From the NCBI GenBank assembly GCA_002388905.1, contig DGNJ01000042.1, positions 2,431 through 16,957 on the forward strand: a stretch of DNA of 14,527 nucleotides, written 5' to 3'. Positions 1,584-10,589 of this stretch are shown piece after piece. The position numbers and the translations under genes are program-made. Below the pieces are notes generated by a model that saw only the letters and a list, made by a program, of their open reading frames with translations, had not been told where the DNA came from and ran no database searches. Numbering within the stretch: position 1 is the first letter of the stretch; each line of letters starts with the position of its first letter. Source of the stretch: Cellvibrionales bacterium UBA4495. Its GTDB lineage: Bacteria > Pseudomonadota > Gammaproteobacteria > Pseudomonadales > Porticoccaceae.

Positions 1584-2108
1584 TCAAAAACCGGTATCGG
1601 ACAGTTTTTCCAGCAATTCCGCAGTGGCGCGCTGGGAGTTCTGCCCCCCCACCTCCAGGACAAGATCGGCAACCTCGCGGAAGAGAGGCTCGCGCTCCCG
1701 GCGCAGGCGGTCGATAACGGCGCGTCGATCTTCCACCTGCAACAGGGGTCGTCGCTTGTCCCGGCGGGTGCGGCGATAAAGCTGTTCGGTGGAAGCATTG
1801 AGAAAAACCACGAACCCCCGCTCCCGCAGAACATGGCGATTTTCGTCGCGTAGTACGACACCACCTCCGGTGGAGAGCACCAAATCGCCGTCGGCGGCCA
1901 GTTCCGCGAGCAGGTCCGACTCACGCCTGCGGAAGCCCTTTTCCCCTTCCACGTCGAAAATCCAGGGAATATCCGCACCGCAGCGACGTTCGATCTCCTC
2001 GTCCAGATCGACAAACCGCTTATGCAATTTGGCCGCCAGAAGGCGGCCAATGGTGGTTTTGCCGACCCCCATGGGACCGACAAGGAATATGTTGCGGCCG
2101 GGCGTCAT
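1584..2108 (-). CDS. aroK: Shikimate kinase
   Basis: This cytoplasmic enzyme phosphorylates shikimate to shikimate 3-phosphate with ATP. The 174-residue product is close to the E. coli AroK length. It carries the Walker A loop GPMGVGKTT (11-19), the DLDEEIE segment (34-40) with the conserved shikimate/Mg Asp residues, a basic patch FRRRES (59-64), the glycine-rich STGGGVVLR (79-87), and lid arginines in RDKRRPLL (116-123). Its ATG overlaps the pilQ stop as ATGA, so its translation is probably coupled to the secretin gene. This pilQ-aroK-aroB order is common in gammaproteobacteria. A run of seven C on the plus strand (1644-1650) lies in frame near the C-terminus. Confidence 0.97.
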
Positions 2109-4294
2109 CTATCCAGGAGCCGGTCTTCGATAATCCTCGGGGTTACAAAGATAAGGATTTCCCGCTTCTGGTTGGCCCGGGCCTTACGCTTGAAGAGCCT
2201 GCCCACATAGGGAATGTCCCCGAGCACCGGCACCTTGTCGACGGAGTCGTTATCCTCCATCTGGAAGATGCCCCCGAGCACCAGGGTCTGGCCGTCGCCC
2301 ACCAGCGCCTGGGTCTGGATCTCGGTAACATCGATGCTGGGTTCGCCGCCAATGATGCGCTGGCCAACTGAATCCTGGTTGATGATCAGGTCGAGGATAA
2401 CGCGGTTATCGGGAGTGATCTGCGGCGTCACCTCGAGACTCAGCACCGCCTCCTTGAACTCCACGTTGGTGGCGCCGCTGGACGTGGCCTCCTGATAGGC
2501 GATCTCTTCCCCGGACTTGATTACGGCGGTCTGTTTGTCGCCGGTCATCACCTTGGGCTGGGAAACCACTTCACCGTACCCGGTATTTTCCAGCGCGCTC
2601 AACTCCAGATCCAGGAAGGCATTGTCCGTCAACAATTCGACGGCGAAGCTGCCGAAGGGGTTGGCCACACCCAGGTCCACGGCAAGTGTCTCCTCGTTGA
2701 CGGTGACCTGTCCGGCGGGGGATGCCGGGTTGTAATTGGTGATGGTCGGGAAGCTGGTCAGCGGGTTGCCCACGTCATCGCCAAAGTTCTCAAGGCTGCC
2801 ACCGACACCGACGCCGGCATCCCCGATCTGTCCTGCGCCCTGTACACCCCAGCGCACACCCAGTTCACGGCGGAAATCGGTATTGGCGATCACGATCCGG
2901 GCCTCGATTTCCACCTGGCGGACGGGGATATCGATCTCCTTGACCAGACGCTTGAATTCCTCGATCTTGTCCTCGGTATCAGTGATGATGATGGTGTTGG
3001 TGCGCTCGTCGACAATCGCCGAACCGCGATTGGAGAGCACCGAACCCGTGGCCAGGCTTTCGTCGCCCCGGCCTGCCCGGCCGCCACCGCCACCACCGCC
3101 GCCGCGGAAGAGCTCAAACAGTTCGCCCGCGTCGGCGTAACGGACACGGATAAATTCGGTGACCAGTGGCGCCAGTTCCTGGAGCTGCTTGTTGGCTTCC
3201 ACCTTGAGGCGCTCCTGTTCGGCAATTTCCGCCGCCGGCGCCACCATCAGGACATTGCCCTCGACACGCTTGTCCAGGCCCTTGGCCTTGAGCACGATGT
3301 CCAGCGCCTGGTCCCAGGGAACATTCTGCAGGCGCAGCGTGATGTTACCGGTGACCGTGTCGCTGGCCACCAGGTTGAGATCGGTAAAGTCGGCGATCAA
3401 CTGCAGCACGGACCGGACCGGGATGTCCTGAAAGTTTAAAGACAATTTTTCGCCGGTATAGTCGAACTTGGCTTTCTGCTCCTCGAGCTCCGCCGGCGTC
3501 AGGGGCTTGACGCTGATCACGTAGCGATCATCCGCCTGATAAGCGAGATAATCGTAATCACCCGTGGCCTCGACACTCACCTTGGTGGTGGTTCCCTCCG
3601 TGGTGGTGTCGATGGCCTTCACCGGGGTGGCAAAATCCACCACGTCGAGACGACGATCGAGCCCTGCAGGGAGTGAAGTCCGGTAAAAACTGGCAGTGAT
3701 GGTATTGCCCACCTTGGTGACATCGACGCTGACATTGTCGGTCGACAGGTCGAGCACGATATTGCCGGCCCCATCGGCGGTCCGCGAAAAATCCACATCC
3801 TGAATGGAACGACCCTCGGTCGCCGGCCGGCCGGCTGGCGCGGCCGGGGTGGACGAGGCCACCACGGCACTCTCGGTGCCACCCACGCGGACAGTGGCGA
3901 CGTTACCCTGGATATCCGTGCTGAAGGGTGCCGCCTCGCTGAGATTTAGGATCACCCGGGTCCGGTTGCCGGCGGTAAGGACCACCGCACTTTTGGCATT
4001 CTCGAAGGACAGGGCGTGCTTTTTCTTTTCCAGTACACTTTTCACATCCTCGAAGTCGAGGACAATGCGCGCCGGCCTTTCGATGGTGTAACTCTGGGGT
4101 TGCGCGGGTGGCTCGGAGAACATCAATCGCATCTCGAACTCGTTGCCGGGCAACGCCACGAAATCGATATCGTCCAGCGTCGCACTCTGTGCCAGCCCGT
4201 GGTGGAGCAGGCCGAGACCGACAACCAGTATGCCTGCGAATCGCTGAATCAGTTGTCTGAAGCCTTTCATGCCTATTTCCCCAGCGTCATTCAT
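2105..4294 (-). CDS. pilQ: Type IV pilus secretin PilQ
   Basis: PilQ forms the outer-membrane ring through which the type IV pilus leaves the cell. The 729-residue protein starts with an export signal (hydrophobic core about residues 19-30, cleavage near Ala35-Gln36). Two AMIN-type peptidoglycan-binding domains follow (about 42-137 and 165-263), then an STN/N0 domain (about 283-352), an N1 domain (about 376-456) interrupted by eight glycines (398-405), and the secretin channel domain (about 460-725) with the signature VPVLGDIPYVGRLF (688-701). The start at 4294 overlaps the pilP stop as ATGA and has AAGGA nine bases upstream. An internal ATG at 4270 (residue 9) follows GGGGA and would remove two acidic residues from the signal peptide, so it may be the true start. 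Last pil gene of the operon. Confidence 0.97.
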   Translation of the reverse strand: MNDAGEIGMKGFRQLIQRFAGILVVGLGLLHHGLAQSATLDDIDFVALPGNEFEMRLMFSEPPAQPQSYTIERPARIVLDFEDVKSVLEKKKHALSFENAKSAVVLTAGNRTRVILNLSEAAPFSTDIQGNVATVRVGGTESAVVASSTPAAPAGRPATEGRSIQDVDFSRTADGAGNIVLDLSTDNVSVDVTKVGNTITASFYRTSLPAGLDRRLDVVDFATPVKAIDTTTEGTTTKVSVEATGDYDYLAYQADDRYVISVKPLTPAELEEQKAKFDYTGEKLSLNFQDIPVRSVLQLIADFTDLNLVASDTVTGNITLRLQNVPWDQALDIVLKAKGLDKRVEGNVLMVAPAAEIAEQERLKVEANKQLQELAPLVTEFIRVRYADAGELFELFRGGGGGGGGRAGRGDESLATGSVLSNRGSAIVDERTNTIIITDTEDKIEEFKRLVKEIDIPVRQVEIEARIVIANTDFRRELGVRWGVQGAGQIGDAGVGVGGSLENFGDDVGNPLTSFPTITNYNPASPAGQVTVNEETLAVDLGVANPFGSFAVELLTDNAFLDLELSALENTGYGEVVSQPKVMTGDKQTAVIKSGEEIAYQEATSSGATNVEFKEAVLSLEVTPQITPDNRVILDLIINQDSVGQRIIGGEPSIDVTEIQTQALVGDGQTLVLGGIFQMEDNDSVDKVPVLGDIPYVGRLFKRKARANQKREILIFVTPRIIEDRLLDR

Positions 4295-4824
4295 GTTGAT
4301 TTTTCCTTAAGGGCCAGTGTCCGTGGCCGTTCGACCCAGCCCCCCTTGCCGTCCGGTACGATTTCTATGACATCCACCTGCAACGGGGTTATGGAAACGA
4401 TCCTGCCGTAGTTCCTGCCCAGGTAATCGCCCACCGTGACCCGGTGAATCCCGCCGCTACCGTCGTTGATCAGGGCCCAGATCGTGCCGTCCCGGCTCAA
4501 TGTGCCGACCATGGAAAGCGAGGCGATGCTGAAGCTCTCCAGGTATTGCTTGCGACGACTTTCATCCGGTTTAACCGCAGCCTTGCCGGACAGCCCCTCC
4601 TGCGACAACACTTGCTGCGGCGGGTCGAAGGGACTGCGCATGGCAACATTGGAATACTTGTAGGCCTGGTAGGGAGGGAAAGTGGGAATGGGCTCGATTT
4701 CCCCCGCCGGGCGCGCCTTCACGTCCGACATGAACTTCCTCAGGTCGCCATGCTGTTCGCCGGAGCAGGCGGCGAGCAGGAGGGCGGCGAAGGCCGCCAA
4801 ACCGATCCGGTGCCAGGCAATCAT
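4291..4824 (-). CDS. pilP: Type IV pilus assembly lipoprotein PilP
   Basis: PilP is a lipoprotein anchored in the inner membrane. It joins the PilN-PilO dimer to the periplasmic domains of PilQ. The 177-residue product has a lipoprotein signal with lipobox Leu17-Ala-Ala-Cys20. A proline-rich unstructured stretch follows (about 40-75, with RSPFDPP at 63-69, typical of the family). The folded C-terminal beta domain (about 97-172) includes LSMVGTLSRDG and WALINDGSGGIHRVTVGDYL. The start lies 3 nt after the restored pilO stop (4828-4830), and 7 nt after the stop used in the sequenced pilO frame (4832-4834). Coupling to pilO translation may therefore survive the frameshift. The pilQ start overlaps its stop. 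Confidence 0.96.
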   Translation of the reverse strand: MIAWHRIGLAAFAALLLAACSGEQHGDLRKFMSDVKARPAGEIEPIPTFPPYQAYKYSNVAMRSPFDPPQQVLSQEGLSGKAAVKPDESRRKQYLESFSIASLSMVGTLSRDGTIWALINDGSGGIHRVTVGDYLGRNYGRIVSITPLQVDVIEIVPDGKGGWVERPRTLALKEKST

Positions 4825-4827
4825 CTG

Positions 4828-5440
4828 CTATTCATCCTGTAGCTTGTAACGGTAGGTTTTCGCCAGCACTTCGAACTGGAGGATATTGCTGTCCCTGGAC
4901 TCGCTGATGGAGTAATCGTGCAGGGTCACGATTCTCGGCAACGCGGCCACCCCGCTGACAAAGGACCCGAAGTCGTGGTACCCCCCCCCTGGCGACTATA
5001 CGGATGGGCAATTCCACGTAGAACTCGGCCGCCCGTTCCGGTTGCAGCGTGATACTCTGGATTTCCAGGCTGCTGCCGTACCCGATCTCGGTAATGTCCT
5101 CGAGCAAGCCGGGGACCTCGGTATCGCTGGGCAGCTGAGCCAGCAGGGCCCCGAAGGATTCCTCCACCTCGGCCATCTGGGCCCGGTACGCCTCAAGATT
5201 GGCGGCCTCGAAGGCGCGATCCTTGAAGGTCTGCTTGAGCCGGGCCTCTTCCTGTTCGAGTTTTTCCAGACGCAGGTTTTGATCCTTGATATGGAAAAAG
5301 TACCCCCCGACGAGAACCACCACGAAAATGCCGATCAGCAGCAGGATCTTCACCGGCAGCGGCCAGACACCGATAGTGTTGAACTCGAGTTCGGCGAAAT
5401 CGATATCCCGGAGCTGTTTGAGCGTATCACTGATCGCCAT
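4828..5440 (-). CDS. pilO: Type IV pilus inner-membrane protein PilO, frameshifted at a G9 run
   Basis: PilO pairs with PilN in the inner membrane and transmits between PilM and PilP/PilQ. The N-terminal part is normal: a short cytoplasmic segment, one membrane helix (about 29-50), a coiled coil (about 52-95), and a periplasmic domain with YVELPIRIVARGG (141-153). There the gene meets nine G (plus-strand C 4981-4989) and goes out of frame. The sequenced frame continues as an Arg/Gln/Pro-rich tail to a TGA at 4832, 202 residues in all. Removing one G gives YHDFGSFVSG, then LPRIVTLHD and FEVLAKTYRYKLQDE, the expected PilO C-terminus, ending at TAG 4828 with 203 residues. The span given covers both frames. 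The cause may be slipped-strand phase variation, a real mutation, or a homopolymer error. Confidence 0.9.
4981..4989. repeat. Homopolymer run C9 (G9 in pilO)
   Basis: Nine consecutive C on the plus strand are read as nine G within pilO, codons 151-154. With eight G the reading frame joins the conserved PilO C-terminus. With nine it enters an alternative frame open to 4832. With seven or ten it meets a TGA at 4926-4928. This is the longest single-base run I found in the window and the only one where I found a broken frame. Confidence 0.85.
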
Positions 5441-5442
5441 GC

Positions 5443-6030
5443 CTATGCCCCCGCCTCATCTGCCTGGTCCGCATCCGCCTGGGCCGCTCTCGGCTGGGTA
5501 AGCTTGACCCGCATCTCGAATTTGTTGCCCTGCTCCCCAAGGGTCTCGTTGGCCTCCACCTTGGTCAGGTTCGGATCCGTGAACTTGTAGGATTCATCCA
5601 GGTTGCGCATGAATGCCGAAACCCGGTTGTTGGATTCGGCGTAGCCCACCAGCGCCAGGTTGTCGCCGTTGCGCCTGAGGCTCGACAGGAACACGCCCTC
5701 GGGCATTGCCGCCACCATCTCGTCGAAAATCCTGACGATATCCGGGCGATTGGCCTGCAGCGACTGGATAACCTCCATGCGATCGAGAAGCTGCTGCTTG
5801 CGCCGCTTAAGCTCCGCAATCTCCTTGACTTGTCTGTCGAGAACCGCGATTTCCTGTTTCAGGAGGTTGTTGCGACTGGCCTGGTTGTCGATACTGGCGG
5901 CCACCAGGCGATCCCAGGCAAAAAGCGCCACCAGGGCCAGCACCAGCACCAGCGCCATGACCCCCAGGAATTCCTTCTTCTTCTCCTGGCGGTATTCTTC
6001 CCGCCAGGGCAGTAGGTTGATGGTCGCCAT
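5443..6030 (-). CDS. pilN: Type IV pilus assembly protein PilN
   Basis: PilN is a bitopic inner-membrane protein whose cytoplasmic tail docks onto PilM and whose periplasmic part dimerises with PilO. The 195-residue product begins ATINLLPWREE (2-12), the family's PilM-binding motif. It continues with a charged segment, one membrane helix (about 22-45), a coiled coil rich in Lys/Gln/Leu (about 50-90), and a ferredoxin-like periplasmic domain (about 95-180, including MPEGVFLSSLRRNGDNLALVG). The acidic Ala/Asp-rich tail (about 181-195) looks disordered. The ATG is 2 nt after the pilM stop and pilO starts 2 nt after its own stop, so the three genes are surely co-translated. Confidence 0.97.
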   Translation of the reverse strand: MATINLLPWREEYRQEKKKEFLGVMALVLVLALVALFAWDRLVAASIDNQASRNNLLKQEIAVLDRQVKEIAELKRRKQQLLDRMEVIQSLQANRPDIVRIFDEMVAAMPEGVFLSSLRRNGDNLALVGYAESNNRVSAFMRNLDESYKFTDPNLTKVEANETLGEQGNKFEMRVKLTQPRAAQADADQADEAGA

Positions 6031-6032
6031 AG

Positions 6033-7173
<1,141 letters not shown>

Positions 7174-7233: not shown

Positions 7234-9741
7234 ATGAAATCATATTTGCTCAAATTTGGTAAGCTTTTCCTGCTTCCGGCCGTTGCCGCGGCGGGTACCG
7301 CGCTGGTCCTGACTGCCGGGTTCTACCTCTATCTGAGCCCCAAGCTACCCTCTCCGGAGACGCTGCGCGAGGTCAAATTGCAGACGCCTCTGAGAATCTA
7401 TTCACAAGATTTGCAATTAATTGCCGAATTCGGCGAGCAACGTCGATCGCCGGTGACCTTCGAGGAAATTCCCCCCGCCTTTATCCAGGCTCTCCTTGCC
7501 GCCGAGGACGATAACTTCTACAACCACCGGGGTGTCGACATAACCGGATTGTTACGCGCTGCCGTGGAGCTGGTCCTCACCGGCGAGATCCAGTCCGGGG
7601 GCAGCACCATCACCATGCAACTGGCCAGGAACTTCTTCCTGTCCACCGAGCAGTCCTTTATCCGCAAGTTCAACGAGATCCTCCTGGCCCTGCGCATTGA
7701 GGACAAGTTCGATAAGCAGGAGATATTGACCCTTTACGCCAATAAAATCTTCCTGGGCAACCGGGCCTACGGCGTCGAGGCGGCGGCCCAGGTCTATTAC
7801 GGCACCCATATCAGCCGGCTCAACCTGCCCCAGCTGGCCATGATCGCCGGACTGCCCAAGGCACCCTCAGCCTATAACCCCCTGGCCAATCCGGGCCGGG
7901 CCCTGGCCCGGCGCAACTGGATTCTTTCGCGCATGCTCAAGCTCGGCCATATCGACAGGGAACAGTTTCGGGTGGCAGAGCAGGCGCCGGTTACCGCCAG
8001 CTACCATGGCCCCACCAATGAACTCGACGCCCCCTATGTTGCCGAGATGGCGCGCCGGGAAGCGATCGATCGCTTCGGCCCCGGCGCCTATACCGATGGT
8101 TACTCGGTCATTACGACCATCGATAGCGACTATCAGCAGGCCGCGGTCCGGGCCCTGCGCTCGGGCCTCCACGCCTATGACTGGCGTCACGGCTATCGGG
8201 GACCGGAGTCCCACATCGACGATCCCGAACAATGGGTCCAGGCCCTGGCCGACACGCCTGTCTATGGCGGTATGGTGCCTGCCCTTGTCACCGCCGTCGG
8301 CGAGGAGTCTGTCGACGTCCTTGTCAAGGGTGGCGAAGCGGTTAACCTGACTAAAGAAAACGGCATCACCGTGCGCCGATACCTGTCGGAGAACCGGCGC
8401 ACCGCTCCCGTGGAGGATCCCCGGGAGCTGTTATCTCCGGGCGACATCATCCGCCTCCAGCGCAGGGACGACACCTGGACACTGACCCAGGTGCCGGCCG
8501 CTCAGGCGGCACTGGTATCCCTGGACCCCGATACGGGGGCCATCCGCGCCCTGGTGGGTGGTTTCGACTTCGACCTGAGCCACTTCAACCGGATCACCCA
8601 GGCCGAGCGGCAGCCGGGCTCGAACTTCAAGCCCTTCATCTACACCCGGGCGCTGGAAAGCGGCATGACGCCCGCAACCATCGTCAACGACGCCCCCGTG
8701 GTCTTCAACGATTCCTACCTGGAAAAAGCCTGGCGACCGGAGAACGACAGCGGCAAGTTCTACGGCCCCACGCGTTTGCGCAAGGCCCTGTACCTGTCCC
8801 GAAACCTGGTCTCAATCCGCATCCTCAGGGATATGGGCGTGGACCGGGCCATCCGGGGCATGGGTCGCTTCGGTTTCGACGAGGGCAATCTGCCCCGGAA
8901 CCTGTCACTGGCCCTGGGCACCCATGCCACCACGCCACTGAGTATCGCCACCGGCTACGCAACCTTCGCCAATGGCGGCTACAAGGTGGACAGTTATCTG
9001 GTAGCCGGTATTAACGACAGCGATCACGCCGCCGTTTATCGGGCCAATCCCACTATCGTCTGCCGTGACTGCGACCTGGACCTGGGCCGGGGGGGAAAAG
9101 ACCCGCTGCTGGTGGAGCCCGACAGCCGGCGGAGCGAAGCAGCCAATATCGGCGAACTCTTTGCCCGGGCCGAGGCGGCCCAGACCGGTACTGAGAACGG
9201 GACAGGAAACGGCGCCGGTGCGCCCGCAAACCAGGGTCCTCCCCTGCCGGAACTGGCCGAACAGGTACTGGACCCGCGTATCGCCTACATCATGGATTCG
9301 ATGCTGAAAGACGTGATCAAGAAAGGCACCGGCCGCAAGGCCAGGGCCCTGGAAAGGAACGATATCGGTGGCAAGACCGGAACCACCAACGGTCCGCGGG
9401 ACGCCTGGTTCTCGGGCTACAGTCCTCACCTGACTACCACGGTCTGGGTGGGCTTCGACGACAACAGCCCCCTGGGCCGGGGAGAATACGGCGGGTCGGC
9501 GGCCCTGCCCATCTGGATCGATTTCATGGCGGCGGCCCTGGCCGGAAAGCCTGAAGTCATCAGGCCGCAGCCCTCGGGAATCACCACAGCGCGCATCGAC
9601 CCGGAAACCGGCAGCCGCGTTGGCCCGGGCAATCCATCGGGCATCTTCGAGCTATTCCTCAAGGAAAACGTGCCACCGCCGGCAACCGGCAGTGACGGCA
9701 ACGGCGAATCGTCGCCATCCCTGCCCGAGGAGCTGTTTTAG
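7234..9741 (+). CDS. mrcA: Penicillin-binding protein 1A (bifunctional transglycosylase/transpeptidase)
   Basis: PBP1A polymerises glycan strands and cross-links their peptides on the outer face of the inner membrane; in pseudomonads the gene is called ponA. The 835-residue product has an N-terminal membrane helix (about 13-35). The GT51 transglycosylase domain (about 55-235) has catalytic Glu91 in EDDNFYNHRG and the conserved GGSTITMQLARN (122-133). An OB-like insert follows (about 320-425). The transpeptidase domain has Ser463-Asn-Phe-Lys466, Ser522-Arg-Asn524 and Lys714-Thr-Gly716. A low-complexity Gly/Thr/Asn/Ala segment (about 650-668) sits before the last third of the transpeptidase. 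A CxxC pair is found at Cys610/Cys613. The C-terminal tail is Pro/Gly/Ser-rich. The gene is divergent from pilM, the standard gammaproteobacterial arrangement, and ends 17 nt from convergent cysQ without a clear terminator. Confidence 0.97.
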   Translation: MKSYLLKFGKLFLLPAVAAAGTALVLTAGFYLYLSPKLPSPETLREVKLQTPLRIYSQDLQLIAEFGEQRRSPVTFEEIPPAFIQALLAAEDDNFYNHRGVDITGLLRAAVELVLTGEIQSGGSTITMQLARNFFLSTEQSFIRKFNEILLALRIEDKFDKQEILTLYANKIFLGNRAYGVEAAAQVYYGTHISRLNLPQLAMIAGLPKAPSAYNPLANPGRALARRNWILSRMLKLGHIDREQFRVAEQAPVTASYHGPTNELDAPYVAEMARREAIDRFGPGAYTDGYSVITTIDSDYQQAAVRALRSGLHAYDWRHGYRGPESHIDDPEQWVQALADTPVYGGMVPALVTAVGEESVDVLVKGGEAVNLTKENGITVRRYLSENRRTAPVEDPRELLSPGDIIRLQRRDDTWTLTQVPAAQAALVSLDPDTGAIRALVGGFDFDLSHFNRITQAERQPGSNFKPFIYTRALESGMTPATIVNDAPVVFNDSYLEKAWRPENDSGKFYGPTRLRKALYLSRNLVSIRILRDMGVDRAIRGMGRFGFDEGNLPRNLSLALGTHATTPLSIATGYATFANGGYKVDSYLVAGINDSDHAAVYRANPTIVCRDCDLDLGRGGKDPLLVEPDSRRSEAANIGELFARAEAAQTGTENGTGNGAGAPANQGPPLPELAEQVLDPRIAYIMDSMLKDVIKKGTGRKARALERNDIGGKTGTTNGPRDAWFSGYSPHLTTTVWVGFDDNSPLGRGEYGGSAALPIWIDFMAAALAGKPEVIRPQPSGITTARIDPETGSRVGPGNPSGIFELFLKENVPPPATGSDGNGESSPSLPEELF

Positions 9742-9758: not shown

Positions 9759-10589
9759 CTATGATGCATCCAGGGCGCCGATATACCTGGCCCAGTCGAA
9801 AGCCGGGTCGCCCAGGACAAAAAACGAGGGATTGATCAGGCTTTCGCGTCTGTTGTAGCGCAAAGGCCGCATCTGGCTGTCGACAACCACCCCCCCCGCG
9901 GCTTCGACCACGGCCTGGGCCGCGGCGGTATCCCACTCCGAAGTGGGACCGTAGCGGGGGTAGATATCCCCCTTGCCCTCCGCCACCCGGCAGGACTTCA
10001 GCGAGCTGCCCAGGCGCACCGTATCCACGGCGCCCAGTTCCGCTTTCATAAGCTTGACCAGGTCCGCCGCCCGGCCGGTGCCGTGGCGGCTGCTGACCAT
10101 TACCGATACCGGCGTCTCGCTGCCGCCGCGGTCCGTCATGGCCCGGGTGGAAATGGGCTGCCTGCCGGAATCGCCATCCAGTCGAAAAGCTCCCCAGCCC
10201 TGCACCCCCAGGTAAGTGATGTCGCCCACGGGAAGGTGGACCACTCCCAGCACCGGCCGGCCGTCGTCCACCAGGGCGATGTTGACCGTAAACTGGTCGT
10301 TGCGGCGAATAAATTCCCGGGTCCCGTCCAGGGGATCCACCAGCCAGTAGCGCCGCCAACGGCGGCGCTCCTCGTATCCCGGTATATGGCCTTCCTCCGA
10401 CAACACGGGCACATCGGGCAAAAGCCGGTGCAACGCGGGCAAAATAATGTCGTGGGCGGCATGGTCGGCCCGGGTCACCGGGGACTGGTCGCGCTTGGTC
10501 ACCACGCCCAGATCGGTTCGCCGATAGACGGCGAGGATGGCATCTCCGGCGCGCCGGCACAGGCCGATGATTTCGTCCGAAAGCGCCAT
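9759..10589 (-). CDS. cysQ: 3'(2'),5'-bisphosphate nucleotidase CysQ
   Basis: CysQ removes the 3'-phosphate from PAP, a by-product of sulfate assimilation, giving AMP and phosphate. The 276-residue product belongs to the inositol monophosphatase fold. Its Mg-binding residues are Glu65-Glu66 in LSEEGH, Asp85 and Asp88 in the signature WLVDPLDGTREF (82-93), and Asp220 in SEWDTAAAQAV (217-227). A Lys/Arg-rich substrate loop is also seen. The ATG at 10587-10589 follows GGTGAAC closely and lies 8 nt after the nudE stop, so the two are co-transcribed. The frame stays open upstream, but that stretch is the shadow of nudE. It contains an in-frame run of eight G (plus-strand C 9890-9897) at about codons 232-234. 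Confidence 0.95.
   Translation of the reverse strand: MALSDEIIGLCRRAGDAILAVYRRTDLGVVTKRDQSPVTRADHAAHDIILPALHRLLPDVPVLSEEGHIPGYEERRRWRRYWLVDPLDGTREFIRRNDQFTVNIALVDDGRPVLGVVHLPVGDITYLGVQGWGAFRLDGDSGRQPISTRAMTDRGGSETPVSVMVSSRHGTGRAADLVKLMKAELGAVDTVRLGSSLKSCRVAEGKGDIYPRYGPTSEWDTAAAQAVVEAAGGVVVDSQMRPLRYNRRESLINPSFFVLGDPAFDWARYIGALDAS

Follow-up and report, generated by a model that had tools for sequence, protein, structure and literature searches.

The pilO gene of the uncultured, marine-type Cellvibrionales bacterium UBA4495 contains a run of nine G behind which the reading frame leaves the conserved protein, and the locus raises the question of whether this run is a phase-variable switch for type IV pili, as the original prediction had proposed, a miscounted homopolymer in the assembly, or a recent change of length in a run that arose by chance. 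The window analysed here, a stretch of 14,527 nt, sits on contig C10 (31,877 bases) of a draft genome of 3.38 Mb in 132 contigs that is 92.8% complete. In a comparison of PilM, the nearest named records were Porticoccaceae/Cellvibrionales metagenome-assembled genomes with 78-79% identity (L033-L037), with records very near the window possibly being omitted. The operon runs in the order pilM-N-O-P-Q on the minus strand, with pilO flanked by pilM, pilN, pilP and pilQ in order. Each of these four gave a single-frame family match in Pfam, which bears out the claim that the neighbouring genes are intact; pilO was the sole exception in the operon. The features of the locus are as follows:

2105..4294, minus strand: pilQ secretin, intact (Pfam Secretin, Secretin_N, STN, AMIN)
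4291..4824, minus strand: pilP, intact (Pfam PF04351, positions 1-146 of 146)
4828..4980, minus strand: conserved C-terminal part of PilO, 50 residues plus stop, in the neighbouring register (Pfam PF04350 positions 95-144; identical to the end of protein P0002, see below)
4832..4980, minus strand: unrelated 49-residue tail encoded by the window's open register and ending with the stop at 4832-4834 (pLDDT below 50 for residues 153-202 of the predicted model)
4981..4989, minus strand: G9 tract in pilO (C9 on the plus strand), site of the frame change (coding-signal switch at 4978)
4990..5440, minus strand: upstream part of pilO in the frame of the start codon, conserved (Pfam PF04350 positions 1-95; tblastn identity of 40-69% with relatives' loci)
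5443..6030, minus strand: pilN, intact (Pfam PF05137, positions 1-78 of 78)
6033..7142, minus strand: pilM, intact; the true start may be further in (Pfam PF11104, positions 1-340 of 340)

The predicted nine-G run was confirmed directly: the plus strand carries nine C at 4981-4989, corresponding to nine G on the coding strand, between A at 4980 and T at 4990. It had also been claimed that pilO is normal up to residue 153 and then loses the PilO C-terminus, and this proved correct. The frame from the pilO start at 5440 matched PF04350 positions 1-95 (residues 58-152) and then lost the domain, of which positions 95-144 were matched in the neighbouring register, so that the full domain was never found in one frame in the window. 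Up to residue 153, PilO also matched its relatives in sequence comparison, and a coding-signal model placed the frame change at 4978, which is 11 nt past the tract start and 2 nt past the tract end. The predicted restored ending was recovered with correct frame arithmetic, as the neighbouring register yields 50 conserved residues up to a stop codon at 4828-4830, which leaves 3 nt to the pilP ATG (4822-4824). The frame that is open in the window encodes a 202-aa product, the last 49 residues of which are unrelated, with a stop 7 nt before pilP, and the third register meets a stop at 4926-4928 after the tract. A second PilO gene was not found in the approximately 93% complete genome.

When 5.8 billion predicted proteins were searched with PilO as query, 7,488 matches were obtained, the best 120 of which were used. 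The exact frameshifted 202-aa PilO of the window (P0001) was present on three public contigs, the longest having 178,278 bases. Another protein, P0002, encoded on one 1,196-base contig, is a full-length PilO of 203 aa that covers positions 1-144 of the 145 of PF04350. Within the first 153 residues, its sole difference from the window's PilO is at residue 4, and its final 50 residues are identical throughout to those translated from the window's neighbouring register; the matches after P0002 fall to about 73% identity among the best 120 of the 7,488. Because P0001 is out of frame on three contigs and the near-identical P0002 is in frame on one, it looks, from these sequences, as if two pilO frame states are on record in apparently one species. 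Of the proposed on and off states of pilO, two frame states within an apparent single species are supported, and switching in a population would be a further supposition. P0002, which is known as a protein only, could owe its in-frame state to different codons and not to a different run length.

The window's PilP was also found on three contigs, the longest of 178,278 bases; among the matches listed, the relative that follows has 68% identity. Since the window's own contig (31,877 bases) is shorter than 178,278 bases, at least one other assembly seems to carry the same frame break. This bears on the competing explanation that real cells have an intact pilO and that the bases of the run were miscounted. 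Runs such as G9 are well known for indel errors, and the tract is known here from an assembled consensus; the intact rest of the pil operon and the in-frame protein P0002 on record would both fit such an error. Against it stands the occurrence of the same frameshifted protein on a different, longer contig, although a common set of raw data may underlie the three P0001 contigs. The full-length 835-aa PBP1A of the window was absent among the best 120 of at least 7,999 candidates, where a 489-aa piece was present at 100% identity. Its gene lies at 7234-9741 in the window, 2 kb from pilO, and the full-length protein was absent among the matches listed, unlike pilO and pilP of the same strain. Because full-length PBP1A is not among the proteins listed, the other assemblies may stop short or be damaged close to pilO.

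Further frame breaks were sought with a coding-signal scan in 311,558 bases, comprising the window and 297,031 further bases in 19 stretches. The sample was non-random: it took in the opening bases of contigs C1-C9 and C11-C18 and the remainder of C10, together with C22, a contig picked for its long run. A first run called zero switches, pilO included, because the switch penalty exceeded the cost of a path through the non-coding state, and the penalty was then lowered. The final scan treated both strands in one model; its only positive was pilO, and breaks bridged by the non-coding state would be missed. It called 86 same-strand frame changes, of which 70 were ordinary gene junctions. Ten of the 16 others lay within 80 nt of an N run, and the six that did not were pilO and five more. 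Three of these five were ordinary junctions by eye (L140:16260, L142:4031, L145:12026), and the other two (L136, L143), in which the switch coincides with a stop and a start follows after 46-55 nt, were ordinary-looking as judged from the table. Assembly gaps aside, the scan thus found a single frame break in the 311,558 bases, that in pilO. In these bases, none of the other called frame changes was within 40 nt of a homopolymer of at least 7, although G/C runs number 12 at length 7, 3 at length 8 and 2 at length 9, and A/T runs of 7-8 number 26, whether genic or not.

Frame breaks in two T2SSE-family ATPase genes (contigs C119 and C41), which from the look of their sequences we take to be pilB-like and pilT-like, were considered as evidence of pilus loss and rejected, as they coincide with N runs and were read as assembly gaps. 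The N runs that interrupt these genes (L153 1501-1502; L156 2199-2217 and 2353-2371) mimic frame breaks in a family search.

Throughout the genome, 136 G/C tracts of at least 7, 15 of at least 8 and 3 of at least 9 (lengths 9, 9 and 10) were counted. A run of nine is therefore rare, and the counts fall off smoothly with run length, without an excess of long runs. Among the 15 runs of at least 8, 11 are intragenic; ten of these, all of length 8, keep the frame, and pilO alone breaks its gene. Six of the 8-runs are spanned by a Pfam domain (L117, L119, L124, L125, L129, L131), and four lie in an open frame flanked by a domain on at least one side (L113, L114, L122, L123). The remaining four of the 15 are intergenic, at a gene junction or unassigned (L118, L120, L126, L130) and include the other 9-run and the 10-run. 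These two, at C22:8649-8657 and C81:10396-10405, lie just beyond a gene for an Fe-alcohol dehydrogenase and one for a STAS-domain protein.

The scan and the intact intragenic 8-runs imply that the assembly is not riddled with homopolymer errors. As the other 9- and 10-runs are outside genes, there is no second intragenic nine-run as a control, and this lack of a control at length 9 or more speaks for the error explanation. It had been named as the main competitor in the original prediction; with the same product on a second, longer contig and no other homopolymer-linked break among the scanned bases, a sequencing or assembly error is less likely than feared, and we regard it as doubtful while still taking it seriously.

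To place the tract among related genes, pilO was compared at 109 other loci, 30 from relatives' genomes and 79 of 80 from named records. The former derive from 57 relatives, none of the window's genus, of which 49 matched in a search for the PilO family and 30 with loci entered the comparison. Left out were L044, without the second half of pilO, and L002, L115 and L116, which repeat the window's own locus. The same contig was met twice in at least three pairs (L011/L067, L027/L083, L028/L036), so that the genomes behind the 109 loci number fewer than 109. All 109 loci were in frame at the tract site. Within the 36 nt surrounding it, the longest run of G was 2-5 in 108 of them and 7 in the remaining locus, L025, which comes from a genome of the window's family. 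The tract is thus not kept in related genomes (109 loci, with none of the 57 relatives' genomes from the window's genus), and, going by these sequences, it is private to the window's genome within the sample of 109. As to how relatives bear on the proposal of slipped-strand switching, the absence of a long G run from 109/109 loci speaks against it, and the near-identical in-frame allele P0002 fits it.

Codon usage in 164 long ORFs revealed GGG to make up 17.6% of Gly codons, and AGG and CGG 9.2% and 33.1% (together 42.3%) of Arg codons. Given these shares, a G run at the conserved Arg-Gly-Gly needs no special cause. All-G Arg-Gly-Gly sites were found at 0 of 42 positions in the sampled ORFs versus about 0.5 expected from the codon shares, which is a weak test. 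Overlapping nine-G matches numbered 4 in this genome versus a median of 5 in the 57 relatives, 31 of which have more. Open frames of 880 and 633 residues carry a mutS and a mutL domain, respectively.

These results weigh on the proposal that the run is an evolved phase-variable switch, by which selection would keep the G run and part of the population would always be pilus-less. Several points are in keeping with it. The run is intragenic and reaches the usual G/C contingency cut-off, which is 9 or more in the excerpted text of a Neisseria phasome survey (PMC5953494), and both frame states exist (P0001, P0002). Neisseria pilC is switched by G/C runs according to the same excerpt (PMC5953494), and an excerpt of a review holds that type IV pilus expression can be phase variable, lowering phage infection (PMC12826054). 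Moreover, since the out-of-frame product still stops 7 nt before pilP, translation on the pilP side would probably be little disturbed; slippage in the run might toggle the whole pilus without affecting the expression of pilP and pilQ, and might serve as bet-hedging against phages that bind pili. On the other side, the long tract is absent from the 109 other loci, the 3.38-Mb genome holds 3 tracts of at least 9 with a smooth decay of run lengths, its nine-G matches do not exceed the relatives' median, and mutS and mutL domains occur in open frames. The excerpted survey gives mean numbers of poly-G tracts per genome of 15.4 for the meningococcus, 18.2 for the gonococcus and 19.4 for N. lactamica, with 1-7 for other commensals (PMC5953494), and the window's genome with 3 tracts is at the low end of these numbers. 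The designation as a classic contingency locus is consequently not upheld, and we consider an evolved switch, including the toggling of the whole pilus, improbable.

For P0002, structure prediction yielded a C-terminal fold at residues 109-198 in the order helix-strand-strand-helix-strand-strand (mean pLDDT 79, pTM 0.44, 26 sequences), in which the tract position falls at the end of the second strand. The P0001 model is without the last helix and the last two strands; its residues 153-202 have a pLDDT below 50, and the adjoining part of the fold also drops in confidence (mean pLDDT 66). The frameshifted tail is thus predicted to be disordered. According to sequence alignment, the lost part of PilO is covered by the solved PilO structures 2rjz, 5uvr and 3jc8. 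In excerpts of the respective papers, a Pseudomonas aeruginosa pilO stop mutant is among phage-resistant mutants, none of which twitched (PMC13170266), and PilO is counted among the proteins essential for pilus biogenesis in a Neisseria review (PMC3960869). From the lost C-terminal fold, the pilO stop mutant and this essentiality, we infer that the window's strain has likely lost its type IV pili.

With the tract, its frames, the conserved ending and the in-frame allele in a near-identical strain directly observed, the explanation we favour, at about even confidence, is a real and recent slippage length change at a chance G run in pilO. It is favoured because of the same product on three contigs, P0002, the 109/109 loci in frame, the scan, the intact 8-runs and the codon usage. 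Codon usage would have happened to create the G run, and polymerase slippage would recently have changed its length. With the last quarter of pilO out of frame, the protein would retain a normal membrane anchor and long helix and lack the C-terminal fold, and type IV pili would fail to assemble. With the run long enough for renewed slippage and the downstream sequence undecayed, the change could in principle be reversed, in a run not built as a switch. The allele may have risen through selection by pilus-binding phages or a lifestyle in which pili are a burden.

The undecayed PilO ending would also suit a recovery of the frame during expression, by slippage of RNA polymerase or the ribosome, with some full-length PilO being made. 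Long G runs can slip, but no such site occurs in the 109 other loci, and we consider this recovery very improbable.

Slippage in pilO, as favoured here, can be set beside known systems. Josenhans reportedly described in 2000 that a short homopolymer in Helicobacter pylori fliP switches flagellar motility reversibly. The likeness is that of a short homopolymer in a gene for the basal part of a surface machine, where a length change is said to switch the machine; in H. pylori reversibility is reportedly stated, whereas for pilO it is our inference, and machine and lineage differ. As in Neisseria pilC1/pilC2, a G/C run lies inside a type IV pilus gene and its length alters the frame (PMC5953494). 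According to the excerpt of that survey, pilC runs span 9-20, pilC was phase-variable in 145 of 205 sequences, the genomes are rich in poly-G tracts, and the pilC protein, unlike PilO, controls pilus retraction and is outside the PilMNOP alignment complex (PMC5953494). Pil mutants of P. aeruginosa selected with phage PO4 are similar in carrying frameshifts or stops in alignment-complex genes, one stop being in pilO, and for pilD the excerpted paper describes a run of five C altered by one base (PMC13170266). Unlike the window, that case is a laboratory selection in another species, and in a test of reversion described there only a duplication mutant readily regained twitching (PMC13170266). 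A homopolymer switch in pilO was not found described in the literature, as judged from titles and abstract openings among the open-access papers listed.

Should the allele be real, forms with and without pili segregate in an uncultured environmental species through a change in one short run, the length states of which could be counted in existing metagenome reads. If switching were true, homopolymer control of pili, best known from host-bound pathogens, would reach the PilMNOP complex and a lineage beyond those pathogens, the bacterium having no known host. If the run length is an error, the locus cautions against pseudogene calls from single assemblies.

Two of the in-frame 8-runs are of separate note. 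One is a G/C run in a type IV pilin-like gene (L124 1501-1508, corresponding to C78:10780-10787; Pfam Tt1218-like and N_methyl), which is presumably pilV-like. The other is a C8 run within the window, at 9890-9897, in an inositol-monophosphatase-family gene which we take to be cysQ-like and the frame of which is intact.
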